Source: Candidatus Bathyarchaeota archaeon
Lineage (GTDB): Archaea; Thermoproteota; Bathyarchaeia; 40CM-2-53-6
Reading direction: 5' to 3'
Assembly: GCA_005888755.1 (NCBI GenBank)
Contig: VBBQ01000030.1
Span: forward strand, 62,001 to 126,000
Length of the DNA stretch: 64,000 nucleotides
This document shows positions 51,027 through 63,205 of this stretch, one piece after another. The translations under genes and the position numbers were made by a program. Under the pieces are notes generated by a model. That model had not been told where the DNA came from, searched no databases, and saw only the letters and a list, made by a program, of their open reading frames with translations. The stretch's first letter is position 1, and each line of letters begins with the position of its first letter.

Positions 51027-53897
51027 GTGCGGGCGAAAACGCCGATTCTAACTATCATCCTCACATTGACCATACTAACAGTCCTACCCAGCTCCCTGTC
51101 TTCGGGTCGCGCTGTAGCTCAGAGTGGTTTCACGCCATGGTCTCCATTCGGTCCCCAAGAAAAGAAGCTCATCATAACCGATTATGGAGATCTCAACGGC
51201 ATGTTAAACGCGTTCCAGAACGGACAGATCGATATCCCTGACTCTCCGCTGGGAGTCGCAGGCACCTCATCGTGTATTAATGCAAACTTCTTCTGTACCA
51301 GCCCAACCTCGGAATTCGGGATCTTTCAGCTAGACATCAACCACCGCATACCGTTCTTGGGAATTTCACTTCAAGAGAATCGATCCGCTCCCCCTCCCTC
51401 GCTTATTCTGCCTGTTACCACAGGCCCAGGTTGTTCAGCAGGATTCGGCCAGTTAATCGTCCAACTTCGCAACCAGGAGCAGGGCAACGCGGTTATTCTT
51501 GACAGTCTGAACAAGTTGACTATCTCAAACCAGCCTAGCGGTTCGCCGTCAGCCACTGTAGGCGATTCTGGCGGAGTCAACCCGACGGGCACCTATGTTT
51601 TCCCGTGCATCTTAGGCGGTACCTACGCGATCAGCTCCAGCGTCTATAACAGTAACTCTTCCTGTTCGTCCGTGACGCCGACGATTTGTGTATCCGTCGG
51701 CGGCGGTCAAACTGTGACAACTACGCTCCTCGTAGATTGGAACAGTCCCAGCACGAAGCAACCGTCACAGGCAGGAGTCTACGTTGGACGTGCGCTTTCT
51801 CACCTCTTGGACAAGCCGAGCTTCATCCAGGGAGTGTTCGGGAATTTGGCAACGTTCGACGACGAACAAGTTGCTCCATCCCAGAATGTTCCCGGCCTCT
51901 TTTCGAACACGGCTGAGTGCTCCGATCATCTTTGGTTCAGTCCATGCAATCCGGTATCCGGGTACAACTTTGTCAGCGACAGCGTAGGTGGCGGTTCAGA
52001 ATGGTGGACTCTCCCCGGCCAGGCGAACGGTGTCAGCTTGGGATATTCAGGCGTGTCTGATCTTAGAGCTGCTTGCGACGATTTTGTCAAGGCCGGCTTT
52101 ACGGTTGTAGGTGGAGCAAATTCAACGGACTGCGGAGACGTCGCTCTGGCCTCTCAAGGCTCCGTCGCCCTCTCCACCTATGCACACCTGGACAACAGGG
52201 GGCAACACGTGTTCAACGCGTGGAGGACAAACCAAGGACGAAAAGAATTCGGAATCATCCTTAGTGATACGATCAACTTTCTCTTCGGGACACCAAACAA
52301 CGGTTGCACAGTTCTCTACTGGGGCACATCTTGTACGCCGAAGGGAGCAACATTCTCCCAGAGCCTTTGCGTCCTCCAGCAAGCCTGCGCGTGGAACATC
52401 TACCAGGGAGGCTGGGACCTAAGCCCCTTCCCGCAGCAACTATACGACGACTACCACAGCTCCTTCGGATCAAGCTTTTGCGGCGGTCCTCCAGTCGTAA
52501 CCCTCGCAAACTACCCTGTATACTGCGATCCTGCGCTTGATACATATGCAGCGGCTGGAGAGTTCAGTCCCACCCTGCCCCAGTCTACCCAGTTCTTCGC
52601 CAAGGCTGCCGCGACAGGTACGTCAAATGGAATGACAGATCCAGCCTTCACGCGCATAGACCAATTCCTGGCTCTGAACGGCTGGAACTTCCAACAGTGC
52701 ACCGGGTCCCCACCTCCATGCTTCTCACGGTCGAGTCTCGTCAACACTCTCGGCCGCGGATTCCTCGCTGGCTACGGGTACTGGTCACTGCTGAACATGC
52801 GGCAAGTGCCCGGTTATGTTCCGCCTAGTCCAGGGTTCGCTCCTGGAGGCGGGGATCCGGATCTGATTCGTCGAGGCTTCAGCCAGGACATCTTCAGCAT
52901 GAGCCCGTTCCAGGCCTACACGAACACTGAAAGGGAGATTGTAAGCCTCCTCTACGACTCCCTGCTGCAAGCGAACCCGATGACCGGAGGGGCAGATGGC
53001 CAGATCGTAGACTGGCAAACCATTGCCCACTCTTCCACTTTCAACCCGAGCGAAGTCTCATGCAACACCCTCAACGGTTGCATTACCGGAACAACAACGT
53101 CCATTTGGCAGCTTAGGAATGATATCAAATTCCAAGACGGAACCCCGCTGACGGCGGATGATGTCGTTTACACAATTCTCTCCTTCAGAGATGTCCCGGC
53201 AATTTACTACCAATATCTTGTGAGTAGTGTTTCCAGTGCAACTGCGCTTAGCTCTCGCACTGTACAGATCAAACTACAAGGTCAGAGTGCCTTCGGAATG
53301 TCTGACCTGGGTTCCGTGCCAATAATCCCCCGCCACATCTGGGAGCCGGTCTGTGGTCCCATCGTGAACGGAGGTATCCCTGGCGGGTCGACATCTCCAT
53401 GCGCGGATCCCACGTTTGATCCGATGGCTCAAGGCATCATGATCGGCGGCGGGCCTTGGCAGTGCATCGTGCCTGTCGGATTTCCTAACGCGGGTCACGT
53501 GGGAGGATCTTGCGTAGAGCCAGTCTGCCAACCGGCTTGCGTGGGAGGCCAAGTAGTCCAAATCGGCACAAAGATCCTGTTAACACGCTACGACGGGTTC
53601 GCCAGATGCTGCCCGGACGACACGTCCAGCAGTCTCTACAAGCTAAGCTGGGCCGACAAGAACAACGATGGAATCGTCAACATCCTCGACTTGGCAAATA
53701 TCGCAGCTCATTACGGACAGCCAGATCCATACTGGGTCAACTCAAACATCGCCCCAGGATCAACGGTCAACGCCGTGGACCTTGCGACCGTTGCGATCTA
53801 CTTTGGCCACGGAACCATCTATCCATTCCGACCCTTACAACTTACCGATTTGGACCCGCAAATAGATCCATTCTTCTGCCCCGCCACGGGATGTTAG
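51027..53897 (+). CDS. Permuted family-5 substrate-binding protein with dockerin-like end, paralog 1
   Basis: A 956-aa exported protein, the most divergent of four. Signal peptide about 1-32. The mature part opens with LIITDYGDLNGMLNAFQNGQ and IDIPD, which in normal family-5 (Opp/Dpp) binding proteins lies past the middle. After a beta insertion (about 115-235) come AGVYVGRALSHLLDKPSFIQ and DLRAACDDFVKAGF. From about 614 the usual N-terminal part appears: RRGFSQDIFSMSPF, IWQLRNDIKFQDGTPLTADD, then VPIIPRHIWEPVCG and GGGPWQC. A dockerin-like segment (about 876-930, DKNNDGIVNILDL) and the tail DPFFCPATGC close it. GTG start. Paired cysteines are frequent. No permease genes are near. Confidence 0.85.
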   Translation: MRAKTPILTIILTLTILTVLPSSLSSGRAVAQSGFTPWSPFGPQEKKLIITDYGDLNGMLNAFQNGQIDIPDSPLGVAGTSSCINANFFCTSPTSEFGIFQLDINHRIPFLGISLQENRSAPPPSLILPVTTGPGCSAGFGQLIVQLRNQEQGNAVILDSLNKLTISNQPSGSPSATVGDSGGVNPTGTYVFPCILGGTYAISSSVYNSNSSCSSVTPTICVSVGGGQTVTTTLLVDWNSPSTKQPSQAGVYVGRALSHLLDKPSFIQGVFGNLATFDDEQVAPSQNVPGLFSNTAECSDHLWFSPCNPVSGYNFVSDSVGGGSEWWTLPGQANGVSLGYSGVSDLRAACDDFVKAGFTVVGGANSTDCGDVALASQGSVALSTYAHLDNRGQHVFNAWRTNQGRKEFGIILSDTINFLFGTPNNGCTVLYWGTSCTPKGATFSQSLCVLQQACAWNIYQGGWDLSPFPQQLYDDYHSSFGSSFCGGPPVVTLANYPVYCDPALDTYAAAGEFSPTLPQSTQFFAKAAATGTSNGMTDPAFTRIDQFLALNGWNFQQCTGSPPPCFSRSSLVNTLGRGFLAGYGYWSLLNMRQVPGYVPPSPGFAPGGGDPDLIRRGFSQDIFSMSPFQAYTNTEREIVSLLYDSLLQANPMTGGADGQIVDWQTIAHSSTFNPSEVSCNTLNGCITGTTTSIWQLRNDIKFQDGTPLTADDVVYTILSFRDVPAIYYQYLVSSVSSATALSSRTVQIKLQGQSAFGMSDLGSVPIIPRHIWEPVCGPIVNGGIPGGSTSPCADPTFDPMAQGIMIGGGPWQCIVPVGFPNAGHVGGSCVEPVCQPACVGGQVVQIGTKILLTRYDGFARCCPDDTSSSLYKLSWADKNNDGIVNILDLANIAAHYGQPDPYWVNSNIAPGSTVNAVDLATVAIYFGHGTIYPFRPLQLTDLDPQIDPFFCPATGC

Positions 53898-53904
53898 AGA
53901 CTTT

Positions 53905-56900
53905 TTGCTTAGGGTTCTCAGTCTAGCTGTGATTCTCAGTCTGTCTGTTCTTATGCTGTTGCCGGGAACGTATGCTCCGGTCCGTGCGCTCAGTCAGGCG
54001 TTCTATAGATTCTCGCCTTTCGGGCCTTTCACCCAGCAGTTGATCATCCACTTCTACTCAGACTTTGACGTTATGTTCTCTCACTTCCAGCAGGGAGAGA
54101 TCGACATCAGCGACTGGCAACTACAATCCCAGAACGCCATCAACACCTTCTGCAACAACGCCGACTTCTTCTGCACCTTGCCTCAGCCCGAGCTTGGTTA
54201 TTTCGGGGAGCAGATTAACAATCATCCTTCGTTCATGGGGATTCCACTACGTCAAAACAGAACTATCAACCCAGCCTCGTTTACCTCAACTAGCTCTGCG
54301 ACAGGCTGCAATACTGGTTTCGGCTCGTTGATCATTACTCTCCTGAACCAGGAGACTAGCACGACTGTCCTAGACCCGCTGAACACTGTGACTGCAGCTA
54401 ACCAACCGAGCGGTTCACCCTCCGTTACCTCTAGCGATTCTGGAGGAACAACTCCCAACGGTGTTTACGTTGTCCCGTGCATCCTTGCTGGAAACTATGC
54501 CCTCCGTTCAAGTGTTTACAATGGAACTGGGTCAGCTGGACCGGTCATTGTCAATATTGCCAGTGCAACAGTTACGAGTGGCACCTTCAACGTCAACTGG
54601 AACAGTCCGAGCAACGTTCGGCCAACCCAAGCACGAGCGCTGTTCGGCGCTGCCATGGCCCACCTGCTGGACGACCCAGCGTTCGTCCGCACTGAATTGA
54701 CAGGTGTGGCCGAATCGCCCTGCTCGTTCTGGGTTCCAGCACAAGGTGGAGCTTGTCCGACAGGCACTACCGCAGAATACCTGTGTCAGACCGCTCCGAC
54801 GTTCTGTCCGACTGCAAATCCGGCAGGAGGTTTGCCAACTGAGGTCGATATTGCTGAATGTCAGTTCAACAATCACCCCTGGCTGAACGTTGTCGGCTGC
54901 TCACCCGATGCGACTGGACATGATGTCGGGCCCTACCACATCTCTGACAGCACCGTAACCGTGAAAACCAGTTTCTGGAATACAGGAACGCCATTCCTTG
55001 TCACGGGATATGCAGGATACGCTGGTCACGATGACTTGAGGGCCGCTTGCGACGATTTCCTCTCAATGGGTCTCACACTCTCACCACCAACCGCCACATG
55101 CAACGACGTGGCTAACGCAGCCAGCCTAAACGCAGATCCCGGTGCCTATGCCCATTTCGTGCCCGCTGGAAGTGGACACATTTTGGACTTCATAAGAACG
55201 TCTATTGGAAGGCAACAGTCTGGCCAGATTATCGCTGACACGTTGAACTTTCTCTTCGGAACACCCCAGAACAGAGACACCCAGGCTGGATTTGTCGGCA
55301 CCGTTTGCTATTTGTTGTGTCCTCAGTATACTCGACATTACTGCAGCTTCAGTTTTCAGTGTTCTCCAATCGTCTTCGAGGACACGTCGCTCTCCGGGGG
55401 AAGCCCGGATGCCTGGCAACTATACACAGAGGGGCAAGGTTTTGATCCTACCCCCGACCAGTTTTTCATTAACAGAAACAGTGTTAACACGGGTCAAGTC
55501 TGTGCCGGTGTGCCCGTGTTCAAGCCGAACAACTACGAATTCTGGTGCGATCCCCAATCCGACACTTGGAGTAGCGCAGGGGAATTCGCCCCCACAGCGA
55601 CTTTGTCAGGGCAGTTCTTCCAAAGGAATATCCTAACCGAGCTCAACAACGCGGTGGACATTCCAGGCTTCTCATTCGTCGATACTTTCGTTGAGAATAA
55701 TGGCTGGAATTTCGCACAATGCAACGGAGTAGCGTGCCTCAACTCACAGTCGAGCATCGTCAACACCGTAGGCTTCGGCACGCAAGCCGGTGGAGCCTAT
55801 TTCTCACTGCTGAACGCGAGACAGGTTCCGGGATACAATCCATGCTCTGTTCAAGGTGCTCCGGCCAATTGTGCTTCTTATGCTCCTGGAGGAGGTAACC
55901 CGAACATTATTCGTCGTGGCTTCTCGCAGGACACCAGTAATCTTAGTCCGTTCACGTTCAACAGCATCTGGGAAGGAGACGTGCTCAGCTCAATTTTTGA
56001 CACAATGCTACAGCCGAATCCCAACACGGGCGGTGGAGGGGCCCAGTACATCGACTGGGGAACCACAAGACACAGTTCTTTCTTCAACCCGAATGAGGTT
56101 GGATGCAACTCGATTGTCGGATGTGCTACGGGTGTCACAACCCAGATCTGGCACTTACGGAACGACTGGAAGTTCTCGGACGGCAACGACGTTAAGGCGA
56201 CTGACGTTGCTTACAGTATTATCGCCTATCGCGATGTACCCTCTTCCCTGCTGCAGAGCTATGTGCTAAACGTCGTCAGCGCTACCGGTCTTGACTGCGG
56301 GCCGGGACAGACATGCAAGACGCTCCAAGTGAAGCTCCAGACCCAGTGTCAAAATCCACAGTTCTGCTCCTTCAGCTCACCTTCTCTTTTCGATTTCAAC
56401 ATCGGTGCCACTCAGTTTGTTCTCGAAAAGTCGCTATGGGCACCTTACTGCGGGGATCCGCCGGTTCCAAATGGAACCTGCGCTAGCCCAGTGTTCGACC
56501 CGATGTATCCAAGCGCTAATAGCCCGGGTATCGAGGTAGGACCAGGACCTTGGTCGTGCATTGCTCCGATATCTGGAACAGGCGTTTCAGCAGGCCACGT
56601 CGGTGGACCTTGCGCTGAAACCGCAGCTGGTGTCTTGACAGGCAGCGCAATCATAACCGACGGCAAGATTCTCTTGTCAGAGAACACCAACTTTGCACGC
56701 TGCTGTCCAAACGGCCCTTCCGCACTCACAAGCTCTCTGTACAAGATCAGCTACGCGGATCACAATAACGATGGAGTGGTCAACATACTAGACTTAGCTG
56801 ATGTCGCTTCGCACTTTGGAACAGCTGACCCGTACTGGGTCAACTCGAACATTGGATCAGGCACAACAGTCGGAGCAGAAGACCTCGCGACAGTGGCCAT

Positions 56901-57000
56901 ATACCTTGGACATGGCATAACCACACCATACACACCACAAACGCTCACTCTAGTCGACCCGCAGACAGATCCATTCTTCTGCCCTGCCACAGGGTGCTAG
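53905..57000 (+). CDS. Permuted family-5 substrate-binding protein with dockerin-like end, paralog 2
   Basis: A 1031-aa exported protein starting (TTG) only 7 nt after paralog 1. Signal peptide LSLAVILSLSVLMLLPGTYA. Order of parts: LIIHFYSDFDVMFSHFQQGE plus IDISDW, beta insertion (about 120-240, GFGSLIITLLNQE to FNVNWNSPS), ARALFGAAMAHLLDDPAFV, DDLRAACDDFLSMG, then from about 670 RRGFSQDTSNLSPFTFNSIW, IWHLRNDWKFSDGNDVKATD, VLEKSLWAPYCG and GPGPWSC. The dockerin-like unit is about 951-1005 (DHNNDGVVNILDLADVASHF) with a second degenerate loop (TTVGAEDLATVAIYLG). Same DPFFCPATGC tail. A patch near 56503-56600 is almost identical to paralog 4. Confidence 0.87.
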   Translation: MLRVLSLAVILSLSVLMLLPGTYAPVRALSQAFYRFSPFGPFTQQLIIHFYSDFDVMFSHFQQGEIDISDWQLQSQNAINTFCNNADFFCTLPQPELGYFGEQINNHPSFMGIPLRQNRTINPASFTSTSSATGCNTGFGSLIITLLNQETSTTVLDPLNTVTAANQPSGSPSVTSSDSGGTTPNGVYVVPCILAGNYALRSSVYNGTGSAGPVIVNIASATVTSGTFNVNWNSPSNVRPTQARALFGAAMAHLLDDPAFVRTELTGVAESPCSFWVPAQGGACPTGTTAEYLCQTAPTFCPTANPAGGLPTEVDIAECQFNNHPWLNVVGCSPDATGHDVGPYHISDSTVTVKTSFWNTGTPFLVTGYAGYAGHDDLRAACDDFLSMGLTLSPPTATCNDVANAASLNADPGAYAHFVPAGSGHILDFIRTSIGRQQSGQIIADTLNFLFGTPQNRDTQAGFVGTVCYLLCPQYTRHYCSFSFQCSPIVFEDTSLSGGSPDAWQLYTEGQGFDPTPDQFFINRNSVNTGQVCAGVPVFKPNNYEFWCDPQSDTWSSAGEFAPTATLSGQFFQRNILTELNNAVDIPGFSFVDTFVENNGWNFAQCNGVACLNSQSSIVNTVGFGTQAGGAYFSLLNARQVPGYNPCSVQGAPANCASYAPGGGNPNIIRRGFSQDTSNLSPFTFNSIWEGDVLSSIFDTMLQPNPNTGGGGAQYIDWGTTRHSSFFNPNEVGCNSIVGCATGVTTQIWHLRNDWKFSDGNDVKATDVAYSIIAYRDVPSSLLQSYVLNVVSATGLDCGPGQTCKTLQVKLQTQCQNPQFCSFSSPSLFDFNIGATQFVLEKSLWAPYCGDPPVPNGTCASPVFDPMYPSANSPGIEVGPGPWSCIAPISGTGVSAGHVGGPCAETAAGVLTGSAIITDGKILLSENTNFARCCPNGPSALTSSLYKISYADHNNDGVVNILDLADVASHFGTADPYWVNSNIGSGTTVGAEDLATVAIYLGHGITTPYTPQTLTLVDPQTDPFFCPATGC

Positions 57001-57080
57001 AGACAGACATGGACGCTCCTCGAATGCTGCTTCCGATACACCTATTGGCGCAACACCCGTTGAGGAGCTGAGAAGGTTCT

Positions 57081-60000
57081 TTGTTTAAGGTTCTCAGTCT
57101 TGCGGTAGTTCTCAGTCTGTCAGTTCTTATGGTGTTGCCGGGAACCTACACTCCGGTCCGCGCGGTCAACCAGAATGGCCCCACTCGCTTTTCGCCTTTC
57201 GGTCCTTTCACACAACAGATGATCATCCATTTCTACTCAGACTTCGACCCTGCGCTCTCAGCCTTCCAGCAAGGGCAGATAGACATCAGCGATTGGACTC
57301 TTCAATCCACAAGCCAGATCAACACATTTTGTAGCAACCCGGACTTCTACTGCACTTCACCCACAGGTCCGGGCGGATATTTTGGTCTAATGATTAACAA
57401 TCACCCTTCATTTATGGGGATTCCACTCCTGCAACCTAGAACAGTAGGTCCCGTCTCGTTCACAACAACCAACACCACGCCCGGTTGCAGCACAGGCTTC
57501 GGCTCCCTGCAAATTACTCTCCGGAATCAGGAGACCGCTGCGACCATACTAGATTTCCTAAACATCCTAACTGTGCGTAATCAGCCGAGCGGTTCGCCGT
57601 CAGTAATGGTCAGCGACTCAGGGGGGTCCAGTCCGAACGGGGTCTACAAGGTTCCATGTATGCTCGCCGGCTCGTACTCCATCATGAGTAGTGTCTACAA
57701 CGCAACAGGTATCATAGTAACAGTTGCGGGGAGCACTATTAAGTCAGGCATTTTGAACGTCAACTGGAACAGTCCCAGCAGTCTCAAGACGACCCAGGCT
57801 AGAACTCTTCTCGGTGCCGCGATCGCCCATCTTATTGACGATCCGGCGTGGGTCAGCGGTGCCTTTGGAAGTACCGCCCTGGCACCCTGCGCCAATGGCA
57901 TCACCTCTCAGGGGATTGCATGTCCAACGGGGACCTCGACAATGTACCAAGGCGGGTTGGGGACACCTCCTCCGGGCGGCCCTGCCTCCCAGATCGATTT
58001 GGCGGAATGCCAGTTCAACAATCATCCTTGGCTTAACGTGGCTGGCTGCTCGCCAGGCGCGACAGGCCACAATATTGGTCCGTACAATATTGCCGATGAC
58101 AAGATCAGTGTCAGTTCCGAGTTCTGGAATACTGGAACGAGCTATGGCGGTCAAGGCTACTCTGGCCACGATGACCTGCAGGCAGCATGCGACGACTTTG
58201 TCAGTATGGGTCTAACACTTTCGCCTTCGACCGCGACCTGTAACGATGTTGCGAACGCTGCTACCGGAACAATAGACCCTGGTGCATATCCTCACATTGT
58301 GCCGAACGGGCAGATCAAGACATACATCAGAGTCAACTTCGGTAGACAACAGTCCGGTCAGGTTATCGCTGACACTCTGAACTTTCTCTTCGGCACTCCC
58401 CAGAACAGGGCTTCTCAGACTGGTTTCGTCGGAACCGTCTGTTATGACGCTCGGACAACCCCATGCACACAGTTCACGCCCAAGTACTACACGTTCTCAC
58501 AGGTGACGCCAATCGTGTTCGAGGATACCGTTGCTTCAGGCGGCAGTCCGGATGCATGGCAGTTGTATACGGGATCGCACAGCGTCGGTTTCTTTCCTGC
58601 CGAGCAGTACTTCGTCAACCATAACAGCATTGGAACTGGTGGGATCTGTGCCGGTCAATCTGTCATTCATCCAGAAAACCCCGAATTCTGGTGCGATCCG
58701 GAGACGGACACTTTTGGGAGTGCAGGAGAGTTCGCTCCGACGCTTAACCTCTCAGAACAGTTCTTTCAAACCGAACTGGTTTACGAACTCAACAGGGCGG
58801 TGGATGTCCCTGCCTTTACCTTCGTAAATGCGTTCGTCGAAAACAATGGATGGAACTTCCAACAATGCACAAGCCAGTGCGCAAATACACAGTCCAGCAT
58901 TGTTAACACTGAGATGCAGGGCACAATAGCTGGCGGAGCATATTTCACACTGCTAAACGCGCGTCAGGTGCCCGGATACGATCCGTGCGCCTTGCCAGGT
59001 GCTCCAGTCAACTGCTCATCCTACAAGCCCGGAGGAGGCAATCCGAACCTCATCCGCAGAGGATTCTCCCAGGACACCTCTAACCTCAGCCCGTTCACTT
59101 TCAACAGTCCATGGGAGGGAGAGATTGTATCCTCGATTTTTGACACAATGCTTCAACCGAATCCCAATGTGAGCGGATCCTCGCAACTCTTTGACTGGGG
59201 CACGATCAGCCACAGTTCCAGTTTCAACCCTAACGAGGTTGGATGCAACTCGATCAACGGATGTGTAACAGGTGTCACGACGCAGATCTGGCGCCTAAGG
59301 AACGATTGGAAATTCTCGGACGGAAATGATGTCAAGGCTACAGATGTTGCGTACAGTATCATAGCCAACCGGGATGTGCCATCGTCACTATTGCAAGTCT
59401 ATGTGATAAACGTGGTAAGTGCAGTCGGTCTTGACTGCGCACCCGGACAACCATGTAAGACATTGCAAGTAAAGATTCAAGGCCAGAGCGCGTTGAACGA
59501 TTTCAGCATCGGAGCCACACAGCTTGTCATCGAAAAGTCGTTGTGGGCACCGTCTTGCGGTGATCCGCCGGTTGCAGGCGGAGTATGCGCCAGTCCAACC
59601 TTCGATCCGATGTATCCATCTGGAAACGCGCCCGGCATCATGGTTGGACCCGGCCCGTGGGCCTGTATCTCTCCGATAGCTGGTACAGGCGTACCCGCGG
59701 GCCACATCGGAGGTCCCTGCTCTAGGGACGCCAGTGGAAAGTTAGTTGGAAGCGCGATAACCCTTGATGGAACAGTCCTCTTGTCGGAAAATACTAACTT
59801 TGTGCGTTGCTGTCCGAATGGTCCATCAGCGACCTCTAGCTCTCTATACAAGGTCAGCTATGCTGACCACAACAATGATGGAGTGGTCAACATACTCGAC
59901 CTGGCAGATATTGCCTCGCACTATGGGACAGCTGACCCGTACTGGGTCAATCCAAATATTGCGTCAGGCACAACAGTCGGAGCAATAGACTTGGCAACAG

Positions 60001-60107
60001 TAGCAATATATTTCGGTCACGGCATAACCGCCCCGTACACGCCACGAACCCTTACTCAGGTCGACCCGCAGATAGATCCTTTCTTCTGTCCCGCTACGGG
60101 TTGCTAG
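57081..60107 (+). CDS. Permuted family-5 substrate-binding protein with dockerin-like end, paralog 3
   Basis: A 1008-aa exported protein. TTG start and signal peptide (LSLAVVLSLSVLMVLPGTYT) nearly match paralogs 2 and 4. The same permuted order is seen: MIIHFYSDFDPALSAFQQGQ at the front, ARTLLGAAIAHLIDDPAWVS, GRQQSGQVIADTLNFLFGTP, then from about 658 RRGFSQDTSNLSPFTFNS, IWRLRNDWKFSDGNDVKATD and LVIEKSLWAPSCG. The dockerin-like unit is about 928-983. The upstream 80-nt gap is related to the one before paralog 4, but its TATA position is degraded (ACCTATTG). Substrate unknown; peptides are typical for the family. Confidence 0.87.
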   Translation: MFKVLSLAVVLSLSVLMVLPGTYTPVRAVNQNGPTRFSPFGPFTQQMIIHFYSDFDPALSAFQQGQIDISDWTLQSTSQINTFCSNPDFYCTSPTGPGGYFGLMINNHPSFMGIPLLQPRTVGPVSFTTTNTTPGCSTGFGSLQITLRNQETAATILDFLNILTVRNQPSGSPSVMVSDSGGSSPNGVYKVPCMLAGSYSIMSSVYNATGIIVTVAGSTIKSGILNVNWNSPSSLKTTQARTLLGAAIAHLIDDPAWVSGAFGSTALAPCANGITSQGIACPTGTSTMYQGGLGTPPPGGPASQIDLAECQFNNHPWLNVAGCSPGATGHNIGPYNIADDKISVSSEFWNTGTSYGGQGYSGHDDLQAACDDFVSMGLTLSPSTATCNDVANAATGTIDPGAYPHIVPNGQIKTYIRVNFGRQQSGQVIADTLNFLFGTPQNRASQTGFVGTVCYDARTTPCTQFTPKYYTFSQVTPIVFEDTVASGGSPDAWQLYTGSHSVGFFPAEQYFVNHNSIGTGGICAGQSVIHPENPEFWCDPETDTFGSAGEFAPTLNLSEQFFQTELVYELNRAVDVPAFTFVNAFVENNGWNFQQCTSQCANTQSSIVNTEMQGTIAGGAYFTLLNARQVPGYDPCALPGAPVNCSSYKPGGGNPNLIRRGFSQDTSNLSPFTFNSPWEGEIVSSIFDTMLQPNPNVSGSSQLFDWGTISHSSSFNPNEVGCNSINGCVTGVTTQIWRLRNDWKFSDGNDVKATDVAYSIIANRDVPSSLLQVYVINVVSAVGLDCAPGQPCKTLQVKIQGQSALNDFSIGATQLVIEKSLWAPSCGDPPVAGGVCASPTFDPMYPSGNAPGIMVGPGPWACISPIAGTGVPAGHIGGPCSRDASGKLVGSAITLDGTVLLSENTNFVRCCPNGPSATSSSLYKVSYADHNNDGVVNILDLADIASHYGTADPYWVNPNIASGTTVGAIDLATVAIYFGHGITAPYTPRTLTQVDPQIDPFFCPATGC

Positions 60108-60136
60108 GGACAGATGTGGACATCTCTCGAACGCTC

Positions 60137-60142
60137 TTTTTT
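60137..60142 (+). terminator. T-run between paralogs 3 and 4
   Basis: Six Ts 30 nt after the stop of paralog 3 and just before the TATA box of paralog 4; likely ends the upstream transcript. Confidence 0.45.
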
Positions 60143-60149
60143 CAGATAG

Positions 60150-60157
60150 ACTTATAC
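60150..60157 (+). promoter_or_regulatory. TATA box before SBP paralog 4
   Basis: ACTTATAC 34-41 nt upstream of the TTG at 60191; the same octamer lies in the promoter of paralog 1. Confidence 0.5.
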
Positions 60158-60190
60158 CCTCGCGACTTGCTCGCCTCCTGAGAAGACTCT

Positions 60191-63100
60191 TTGTTCAGGG
60201 TTCTCAGTCTTGCGATAGTTCTCAGTCTGTCTGTTCTTATGGTGTTGCCGGGAACCTATACTCCGGTTCGCGCGATCAACCAGACTAATCCCTTACGTTT
60301 TTCGCCCTTCGGGCCTTTCACGCAGCAGATGATCATTCATTTTTACTCAGACTTCACCGTGATGTTCCAGCATTTCCAGCTGGGAGAAATCGACATCAGT
60401 GACTGGCCTCTACAATCCAGTGCCGACATCAGCACTTTCTGCTCTAACGCTGACTTCTTCTGTACGAGCCCTCAACCTCAGCTCGGATATTTCGGGCAGG
60501 AACTCAATAGCCATACTCCGTTTATGGGAATCGCGCTGACACAAGCAAGGACTACCAGTCCACCCTCGTACACCACAACCTCTACTGCAGCAGGCTGCAG
60601 CAGTGGTTTCGGCTCGTTGACCGTTACTGTACGGAATCAGGAGACCAGTTCGATCGTGTTAGACTCACTGAACGCTTTGACCGTCGCCAACCAACCGAGC
60701 GGGTCACCATCGGCAACCGTTAGCGACTCAGGAGGATCAACTCCAAACGGCGTGTACAACATTCCATGTATCCTCGCTGGGACCTACAGCCTTAGATCCA
60801 GCGTCTATAATGCCACCGGCACTACCGTGGCCATTGGTAGTGCAACGACTACCTCAGGCACTCTTAATGCCAACTGGAACAGTCCGAGTAATGTGAGGCC
60901 AACTAGGAACAGAGCGCTCCTCGGCGCTGCGATAGCTCACTTGCTTGATGACCCAGAGTTTGTTTCCAGCACTTTCGGTCCCGTAGCCTCCGCACCTTGC
61001 GCTTTCATGGTTCTCGCGCAAGGACAGGTCTGTCCAACCGGTACAACAAGTTCATACCAGTGCCTTCTCCCACCATTAGCTACTCCCGCACCCTGTCCAG
61101 CATTGAATCCTCTGGGCGGTGCCGCTACGCAGAATGATAATGCTGAATGCCAGTTTGGTAATCACCTCTGGCTGAATGTGATCGGATGCGCCTCAGGCGC
61201 GACCGGCCACGACCTCGGCCCCTACAACGTTGGTGACGACAGAGTGAACGTCAACGCTCGATTCTGGAACACCGGAGCTTTCGGCGTCGTCCAAGGTTAT
61301 TCCGGCCACGACGACTTGCGAGCTGCGTGTGACGATCTCGTTTCAATGGGTCTCACGCTCTCGCCCTCAACCGCCACCTGTAACGATGTGGCAAATGCGG
61401 CTGACCTGACCACGGACCCAGGCACATACGCGCACATCGTGCCTGCCGGGGATGGTCACATCAAATACTACATCAGGTCCAACTTTGGAAGACAACAGTT
61501 CGGCCAGGTCATCGCCGACACTTTGAACTACCTCTTTGGAACCCCTCAGAACAGAGCTGCTCAGACAGGTTTTGTCGGCACCGTCTGCTATGGTCAGTGT
61601 CCTCAGTACACTCCAAGGTACTACACCTTTACCCAGGTGCAGAGTTGCGTCTTTGCGGACACCCCGGCCTCCGGGGGCAGCCCAGATTGTTGGCAGCTAT
61701 ACACGGCGGGGCAGGGCTTCGACCCGACAGCAGACCAGTACTACCTGAACAGAAACAGCATTCAAACTGGCACCATCTGTGCCGGCGTGGCTGCGTTCAA
61801 GCCGAATAACTACGACTTCTGGTGCGATCCGCAGACAGACACTGACAGCAACGCGGGTGAGTTCTCCGCAACATTGGCTATCTCAGGGCAGTTCTTCCAG
61901 AGAGCGCTCCTCGATGAGCTCAACAACGCGGTTAGCATCCCAGGCTTCTCCTTCGTTGACACTTTCGCTGAGAACAACGGCTTCAACCTCCAACAATGCA
62001 CCACACAGTGCTCACCCACTCAGTCGAGTATAGTCAATACCGTAGGCTTCGGCACGCTGGCGGGAAGTGCTTACTACACGTTGCTGAACGCTCGTCAGGT
62101 TCCGGGATATACGGCTCACGTCGCGGCGTACCAACCTATTCCCGGTTTGATTCGCAGAGGCTTCTCGCAGGACACTAGCAATCTCAGCCCGTTCACGTTC
62201 AACAGCGTATGGGAAGGTGATGTGCTCGCCGATATTTACGACACAATGCTCAGCCCTGATCCTAACACAAGTGGTGGGAACACCCAGTTCATCGATTGGG
62301 GAACAACCAGCCACAGTTCTCGCTTCAACGCCAACGAGCTTGGATGCAACTCTATCAACGGATGCTCTATCGGAGTCACTACACAAATCTGGCACATACG
62401 CAACGACTGGAAGTTTTCCGACGGCAATGATGTCAAGGCTAGTGACGTAGCCTACAGTATTATAGCGTACCGAGACGTGCCATCTTCCTTGTTACAAGGC
62501 TACGTGGTAAACGTAGTCAGTGCTTTCGGTCTCGACTGCGGTGCCGGGCAACCATGCAAGACACTGCAGGTTAAACTGCAAGGCCAGAGCTCACTGTTCG
62601 AATACAACATCGGAGCCACTCAATACGTCCTTGAAAAGTCGTTGTGGGCACCGTACTGCGGAGACCCACCAATTCCAGGTGGGACCTGTGCCAGCCCCTT
62701 GTTCGATCCCATGTATCCAAGCGCTAATAGTCCGGGTATTGAGGTAGGACCAGGTCCTTGGTCGTGCATTGCTCCGATATCTGGAACAGGCGTATCAGCA
62801 GGCCATGTTGGTGGTCCATGTGCTGAGACATCGACTGCCTTGACAGGGGGAGCAATAACGCGCGACGGCAGAATTCTCCTTCAGGCGAACACGTTCAACG
62901 CTCGATGTTGTCCAACCGGACCAACCTCTACCGGCAGCTCTCTGTACAGGATCAGCTATGCGGATCACAACAATGATGGTGTCGTCAACATACTAGACCT
63001 AGCTGATGTTGCCTCGCATTACGGAACTACTGACTCGTATTGGGTCAACCCGAACATTGCGACAGGCAGCACAGTCGGAGCTGTAGACCTGGCAACTGTA

Positions 63101-63205
63101 GCAATATACTTCGGACACGGCACAACCACGCCATTCGCTCCCGAAACGCTCTTTCAAGTCGACCCACAAGTCGACCCATTCTTCTGCCCAAGCAACGGCT
63201 GCTAA
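60191..63205 (+). CDS. Permuted family-5 substrate-binding protein with dockerin-like end, paralog 4
   Basis: A 1004-aa exported protein with its own TATA box and TTG start. Signal peptide LSLAIVLSLSVLMVLPGTYT. Front half: MIIHFYSDFTVMFQHFQLGE plus IDISDW, beta insertion, RALLGAAIAHLLDDPEFV, DDLRAACDDLVSMG, YCP-like FWCDPQTDTDSNAGEF. Rear half from about 653: RRGFSQDTSNLSPFTFNSVW, IWHIRNDWKFSDGNDVKASD, VLEKSLWAPYCG, GPGPWSC. Dockerin-like unit about 924-978 (DHNNDGVVNILDLADVASHY). The tail is DPFFCPSNGC, slightly changed. As in the others, no lipobox and no C-terminal membrane anchor are seen, so attachment to the cell may depend on the dockerin-like part. Confidence 0.87.
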   Translation: MFRVLSLAIVLSLSVLMVLPGTYTPVRAINQTNPLRFSPFGPFTQQMIIHFYSDFTVMFQHFQLGEIDISDWPLQSSADISTFCSNADFFCTSPQPQLGYFGQELNSHTPFMGIALTQARTTSPPSYTTTSTAAGCSSGFGSLTVTVRNQETSSIVLDSLNALTVANQPSGSPSATVSDSGGSTPNGVYNIPCILAGTYSLRSSVYNATGTTVAIGSATTTSGTLNANWNSPSNVRPTRNRALLGAAIAHLLDDPEFVSSTFGPVASAPCAFMVLAQGQVCPTGTTSSYQCLLPPLATPAPCPALNPLGGAATQNDNAECQFGNHLWLNVIGCASGATGHDLGPYNVGDDRVNVNARFWNTGAFGVVQGYSGHDDLRAACDDLVSMGLTLSPSTATCNDVANAADLTTDPGTYAHIVPAGDGHIKYYIRSNFGRQQFGQVIADTLNYLFGTPQNRAAQTGFVGTVCYGQCPQYTPRYYTFTQVQSCVFADTPASGGSPDCWQLYTAGQGFDPTADQYYLNRNSIQTGTICAGVAAFKPNNYDFWCDPQTDTDSNAGEFSATLAISGQFFQRALLDELNNAVSIPGFSFVDTFAENNGFNLQQCTTQCSPTQSSIVNTVGFGTLAGSAYYTLLNARQVPGYTAHVAAYQPIPGLIRRGFSQDTSNLSPFTFNSVWEGDVLADIYDTMLSPDPNTSGGNTQFIDWGTTSHSSRFNANELGCNSINGCSIGVTTQIWHIRNDWKFSDGNDVKASDVAYSIIAYRDVPSSLLQGYVVNVVSAFGLDCGAGQPCKTLQVKLQGQSSLFEYNIGATQYVLEKSLWAPYCGDPPIPGGTCASPLFDPMYPSANSPGIEVGPGPWSCIAPISGTGVSAGHVGGPCAETSTALTGGAITRDGRILLQANTFNARCCPTGPTSTGSSLYRISYADHNNDGVVNILDLADVASHYGTTDSYWVNPNIATGSTVGAVDLATVAIYFGHGTTTPFAPETLFQVDPQVDPFFCPSNGC

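Follow-up and report, generated by a model that had tools for sequence, protein, structure and literature searches.

Four tandem open reading frames (ORFs) in a soil archaeon raise the question of whether a familiar transport protein is encoded there with its two halves in exchanged order, and, if so, whether the tandem array is the place where that order arose. Solute-binding proteins (SBPs) are textbook clam-shell proteins whose domain order serves their classification, and profile methods presume that order. The four genes, ORFs 1-4, lie in a window of 64,000 nucleotides, the whole stretch of DNA analyzed here, from Candidatus Bathyarchaeota archaeon (GCA_005888755.1, contig VBBQ01000030.1, positions 62,001-126,000, forward strand). 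A first-pass annotation had proposed that they encode circularly permuted family-5 SBPs and that the array is what the permutation event left behind. Each of ORFs 1-4 very likely encodes one self-sufficient, secreted SBP of cluster C, the peptide/nickel class, permuted and inherited from an old permuted family, a reading founded on the permuted order, a confidently predicted fold, homology with DppA, OppA, and NikA, and a close paralog heading a dppBCDF operon.

The canonical N-to-C order of segments in the Pfam family SBP_bac_5 (PF00496, a model of 368 positions) is absent from ORFs 1-4, where the order is reversed. In all four, PF00496 covers the rear half alone, and it does so with its own N-terminal positions: residues 689-770 of ORF1 match model positions 16-100 (E-value 8e-13, 48.7 bits against a gathering score of 32.4), and the rear parts of ORFs 2, 3, and 4 match positions 17-59, 18-46, and 17-49, respectively (E-values 5e-6 to 5e-5), with scores of 23-26 bits that fall under the Pfam cut-off of 32.4. 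The front half is unmatched by Pfam. Profile-profile comparison (hhalign) with 12 canonical-order SBPs, comprising E. coli DppA and OppA and others from archaea, assigned the rear half to DppA 38-237 (probability 98, E-value 3e-14) and the front half to DppA 236-312 (E-value 0.0017, probability just 16), with the two segments meeting at 236/237; cut points are given in DppA precursor numbering throughout. An NCBIfam scan of the window proteins gave near-chance matches only. The pairing of short sequence blocks made in the first-pass annotation was correct in 4 of 4 proteins, with IIHFYSDF...GEIDI first and RRGFSQD, HLRNDWKFSDG, VLEKSLW/IIPRHIW, and GPGPW/GGGPW last.

Predicted structure settles the weak sequence match of the front half, which is for this reason assigned to the C-terminal part of DppA. 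AlphaFold2 gave one confident model for ORF1 minus the signal peptide, with a predicted local distance difference test (pLDDT) score of 87.2 and a predicted template modeling (pTM) score of 0.88. In structural alignments (VIA-align), model residues 9-563 correspond to 1DPP 206-507 (Z 20.9, 293 residues, root-mean-square deviation (rmsd) 2.2 Å); many family-5 structures, NikZ among them (185-494, Z 21.4), are matched in their C-terminal part. The rear half, folded separately (pLDDT 84.6), corresponds to NikZ 2-186 (Z 18.2, rmsd 2.0 Å, 183 residues), and also to AppA 17-210 and NikA 3-188, with Z of 16-18 across the rear matches. The listed structural matches are all family-5 proteins (Z ~16-21), with none from cluster B or another fold. 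In these models, front and rear segments jointly span the three-domain DppA/OppA fold with both lobes, each half falling where the first-pass annotation had placed it, and the front half proved to be neither a complete SBP, nor an unrelated domain, nor a match to the N-terminal part of the family model. Sequence profiles, predicted structure, and many higher-scoring relatives thus identify ORFs 1-4 as a circular permutation of a family-5 SBP, cut at DppA 236/237, and they are classed as a permuted subgroup of SBP_bac_5/cluster C, not as ordinary members.

The chain would start near DppA 237, cross the second lobe to the old C-terminus, pass through a linker into the old N-terminus, and end near 236, followed by a dockerin-like tail. 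Each of ORFs 1-4 has a hydrophobic N-terminal signal, and the protein would be exported and is predicted to fold to the usual two-lobed clam. The lobes would capture a peptide-like ligand outside the cell, which the SBP would hand to DppBC for ATP-driven import by DppD/DppF. Several points weigh against this picture: sequence similarity in the front half is weak alone and leans on predicted structure; ORFs 1-4 are about twice the usual SBP length, with insertions; every dockerin match in them is under the Pfam cut-off; and the window is without a permease gene, which leaves transport by ORFs 1-4 to be argued from a paralog on contig C13 of the same genome.

Many relatives of the window proteins share the inverted order. 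A lone E. coli DppA query (phmmer) already reveals it in many archaeal ORFs, and a profile built from canonical proteins makes it clear-cut. Of the fetched ORFs, a sample picked partly for permuted order, 60 were permuted and 59 canonical, and 25 gave partial matches only; the permuted ones fall into three types. Type A is cut at ~236/237, as in L108, in which residues 51-364 match DppA 233-520 and residues 380-585 match 28-236. Type B is cut at ~277-284 (L058: residues 65-307 match 282-520, then 323-593 match 30-279), in one case at 291-298, and type C at ~369-373 (L090: residues 36-192 match 370-521, then 200-545 match 28-369). The window family belongs to type A, and compact type A relatives such as L108 score far above the window proteins, in the same order. 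Segments in permuted proteins are complementary, with hardly any overlap, and the linker between old C- and N-terminus has a median of 15-33 residues. Most type C proteins (18 of 25) end in a hydrophobic segment. A phmmer search of the PDB with a type A protein found only chains matching in canonical position, and an alignment-based search for related loci yielded one true relative, L145 of Ca. Bathyarchaeota BA_25 (G007), whose genome is closely related to that of the window. The first-pass annotation had suggested looking for unpermuted relatives; canonical-order proteins are encoded by organisms of the same family (L045 and L065, G020). The genome of the window also encodes, on the window's contig but outside the window, a permuted SBP of type C with its cut at DppA ~370 (L011:6640-8715, + strand), and at the edge of contig C2 a second, interrupted copy that contains an in-frame stop (L012:2-1303, - strand). 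In genome G240, an in-frame TAG breaks a type A SBP in two ORFs (L228:5243-7453, + strand).

A survey of 250 Thermoproteota genomes with the type A profile, at a threshold of E 1e-40, found matches in 45, and in ~27 of these one unbroken match spans the junction from old C-end to N-start; junction-spanning matches to the type C profile occur in more than 12 genomes. The permuted order is also present in other families, on chromosomes that are closed or nearly so (L189-L194, L219-L222). Among these, L219-L222 are SBPs of ~770 amino acids conserved within one family, of a divergent type A with a Thr-rich C-terminal stretch and a membrane segment. Two bacterial proteins that turned up (L146, L147) have canonical order, the survey being limited to Thermoproteota. 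As judged by profile matches, permuted family-5 SBPs are widespread across this phylum, with at least three cut points (~236, ~280, and ~370).

The link to transport comes from operon context. A fifth paralog (L009, contig C13) is a single-copy gene heading a complete dppBCDF operon, in which the genes after the SBP encode a pair of BPD_transp_1 permeases, OppC_N being present in the second, and then two ATP-binding cassette (ABC) ATPases with oligo_HPY; among seven BPD_transp_1 matches in the genome, the C13 pair is the strongest. This SBP is the closest paralog, with 70% identity to ORF4 in the front half and 85% in the rear half, and it carries the same insert and tail as the window proteins. 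Permuted types A, B, and C adjoin DppB/C/D/F-like genes in at least 11 further loci (L148, L149, L151-L153, L155-L160). Association with an Opp/Dpp importer thus applies to the paralog on C13 and to further members of the family, not to the window copies, beside which the window holds no transporter or permease gene. ORFs 1-4 might accordingly be SBP-derived proteins that have lost transport and act as receptors on the surface, as scaffold, or as cellulosome-like binding proteins by way of the dockerin-like tail and β insert, and the presence of these two extra elements, like that of a paralog on contig C17 whose tail region houses an NHL propeller, would suit such a role. This is nevertheless unlikely, because the closest paralog, with the same insert and tail, heads the dppBCDF operon, and family members in G007, G013, G017, and G019 also adjoin dppB/C genes. 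The C13-encoded permease probably serves the four orphan genes as well, after the model of Pseudomonas aeruginosa, in which DppA1-A5 share one DppBCDF (PMC4206461). Those proteins are of canonical order, and their sharing was tested there, whereas for the window array it is drawn by analogy.

The tails of ORFs 1-4 match PF00404 (dockerin type I) with E-values of 0.015-0.16 and 13.7-17 bits against a cut-off of 22.9, and the first calcium-loop motif alone is well kept. The sixth relative, on contig C17 (L010:3-4004, + strand), has its NHL-repeat propeller between the two halves of the tail. On contig C13, ~100 bases upstream of the permuted SBP, lies a gene for a secreted cohesin and PKD protein (L009:12006-13400, - strand) with a cohesin match above cut-off (E 5.5e-7) and a C-terminal transmembrane segment. 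Cohesin and dockerin proteins occur several times in the genome. Through its dockerin-like tail, the SBP may be retained at the cell surface by a membrane-anchored cohesin such as this one; tethering of the C13 protein by cohesin-dockerin pairing, in an ABC-importer SBP of an archaeon, is possible and is offered as a hypothesis only. The insert of ORFs 1-4 is a β-rich stretch of ~110 residues in the front half (ORF1 model residues ~85-206) with the pattern CSxGFGxLxxxLxNQETG...AGxYxLSSSVY, which comes after the block that matches DppA ~312 and before the RQAL-like helix, and compact relatives such as L108 are without it.

The history of the permuted order was traced in a tree of 58 proteins, with segments re-ordered to canonical, inferred in IQ-TREE under a mixture model; the tree is unrooted and has long branches, and L059, which has a truncated ORF and is cut as in type C, was excluded. 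The tree needs seven changes of order type, and its starred branches force at least four between canonical and permuted; type A is split between two distant clades, and type B likewise appears at two positions. Approximately unbiased (AU) tests (LG+F+G4, fast trees) rejected one common clade for the permuted proteins as a whole (p 2e-37) and a single clade per type for A (0.03), B (0.003), and, narrowly, C (0.046). A single origin of the permuted form, with nested canonical relatives as reversions, draws on the facts that counts on an unrooted tree cannot separate gain from loss and that the deep branches are long; it is improbable in light of the AU tests and the forced changes, and because one event cannot yield three different cut points and reversion itself requires repeated permutation. 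From the sequence trees, several independent permutation events are the safe statement, although their exact number is uncertain. Family-5 SBPs of Thermoproteota have probably been permuted repeatedly and independently, with at least four changes and three cut sites, while keeping dedicated Opp/Dpp partners, and would thereby form a natural permutant series.

The array itself is younger. ORFs 2-4 share 66-69% identity in the front half and 75-81% in the rear half, and 42-55% with ORF1. Whether front or rear halves are compared, the window genes and the C13 gene show a similar ranking of identities, which indicates that the halves move together as one gene, and the permuted order in single-copy operon heads and many families implies that the permutation long predates the array of four genes. 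The array therefore appears as a recent expansion of an already permuted old gene, not as the birthplace of the permutation. The first-pass proposal of a local origin is rejected on account of the permuted order in single-copy genes heading dppBCDF operons and in many other, distant families of the phylum. Its observation that the normal order returns when one gene's end is read on into the next gene's start holds for any head-to-tail permuted array and adds no evidence. Tandem duplication is a textbook route to permutation and, by analogy, plausible for the original events. The same head-to-tail layout could also suggest that the rear of one product and the front of the next assemble into one SBP, as a domain-swapped fiber or by complementation. 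This is very improbable, given that complete dppBCDF operons begin with a single-copy permuted SBP (L009, L148, L149, L151, L153, L159), that the single chain folds confidently (pTM 0.88) with short linkers, and that half genes stand at neither end of the array, which is flanked by an aminotransferase-like ORF upstream and a GTPase ORF downstream. An assembly or alignment artefact, conceivable in that the window belongs to a multi-contig genome, can practically be dismissed, since in tens of genomes, some of them with contigs of 1.3-2.3 Mb, the whole order is contained in one unbroken ORF, closed genomes exclude such an artefact, and the segments of permuted proteins are complementary.

Table 1. 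Features of the four-gene array, in window positions.
Feature	Coordinates	Strand	Size and basis
ORF1 (W1), permuted family-5 SBP, predicted secreted	51027..53897	+	956 aa; Pfam, hhalign, AlphaFold model, VIA-align
ORF1 front, canonical SBP C-terminal part (1DPP 206-507), with inserted β-rich stretch	51144..52808	+	VIA-align, secondary structure, hhalign
ORF1 rear, canonical SBP N-terminal part (NikZ 2-186, DppA 38-237)	52854..53612	+	VIA-align, hhalign, PF00496
PF00496 match in ORF1 rear part	53091-53336	+	Pfam
ORF1 dockerin-like loop DKNNDGIVNILDL, sub-threshold	53655..53711	+	PF00404 E 0.16 (search of own genome)
ORF2 (W2), architecture as ORF1; rear half from ~55876	53905..57000	+	1031 aa; Pfam, hhalign
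ORF2 dockerin-like loop, sub-threshold	56752..56820	+	PF00404 E 0.015
ORF3 (W3), architecture as ORF1; rear half from ~59019	57081..60107	+	1008 aa; Pfam, hhalign
ORF3 dockerin-like loop, sub-threshold	59859..59927	+	PF00404 E 0.063
ORF4 (W4), architecture as ORF1; rear half from ~62126	60191..63205	+	1004 aa; Pfam, hhalign
ORF4 dockerin-like loop, sub-threshold	62957..63025	+	PF00404 E 0.044

Natural permutation of an ABC-importer SBP has a precedent in TpMglB-2 (Tp0684), a circularly permuted glucose-binding protein for which the authors proposed the name 'Type Ic / Cluster Bc'; it binds its ligand and changes shape, and its gene is clustered with permease and ATPase genes (PMC4990184). TpMglB-2 is a sugar SBP of Type I/cluster B, known with one cut point from spirochaetes and Gram-positive bacteria, whereas the permuted SBPs described here are, by sequence and by the structural matches listed, of cluster C (family 5), another fold class, in archaea and with at least three cut points. 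With DppA, OppA, and NikA the window proteins share the fold segment by segment (Z 16-21), the PF00496 family, and dppBCDF partners, but they differ in the reversed order of N- and C-terminal parts, the long insertions, and the dockerin-like tail. In open-licence papers, TpMglB-2 was the only natural SBP permutant found and no permuted cluster C or archaeal SBP came to light, subscription journals lying mostly outside the search, so that an earlier report is possible; OpuAC was considered as a permutant, and the OpuAC paper makes no mention of permutation. As far as could be checked, the principle of permutation is known, and the fold class, domain of life, and multiplicity of cuts are new.

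The permuted order explains the half-length matches of many archaeal SBPs. A large archaeal set with three break points, standing beside paralogs of canonical order that share its phylum and operon context, amounts to a natural experiment on permutation, through which the effect of moved termini on folding, anchoring, or permease docking becomes testable, and it supplies natural permutants ready for biosensor design. For the archaea themselves, repeated relocation of the termini may possibly suit surface anchoring, whether by a C-terminal membrane anchor or by cohesin-dockerin pairing.

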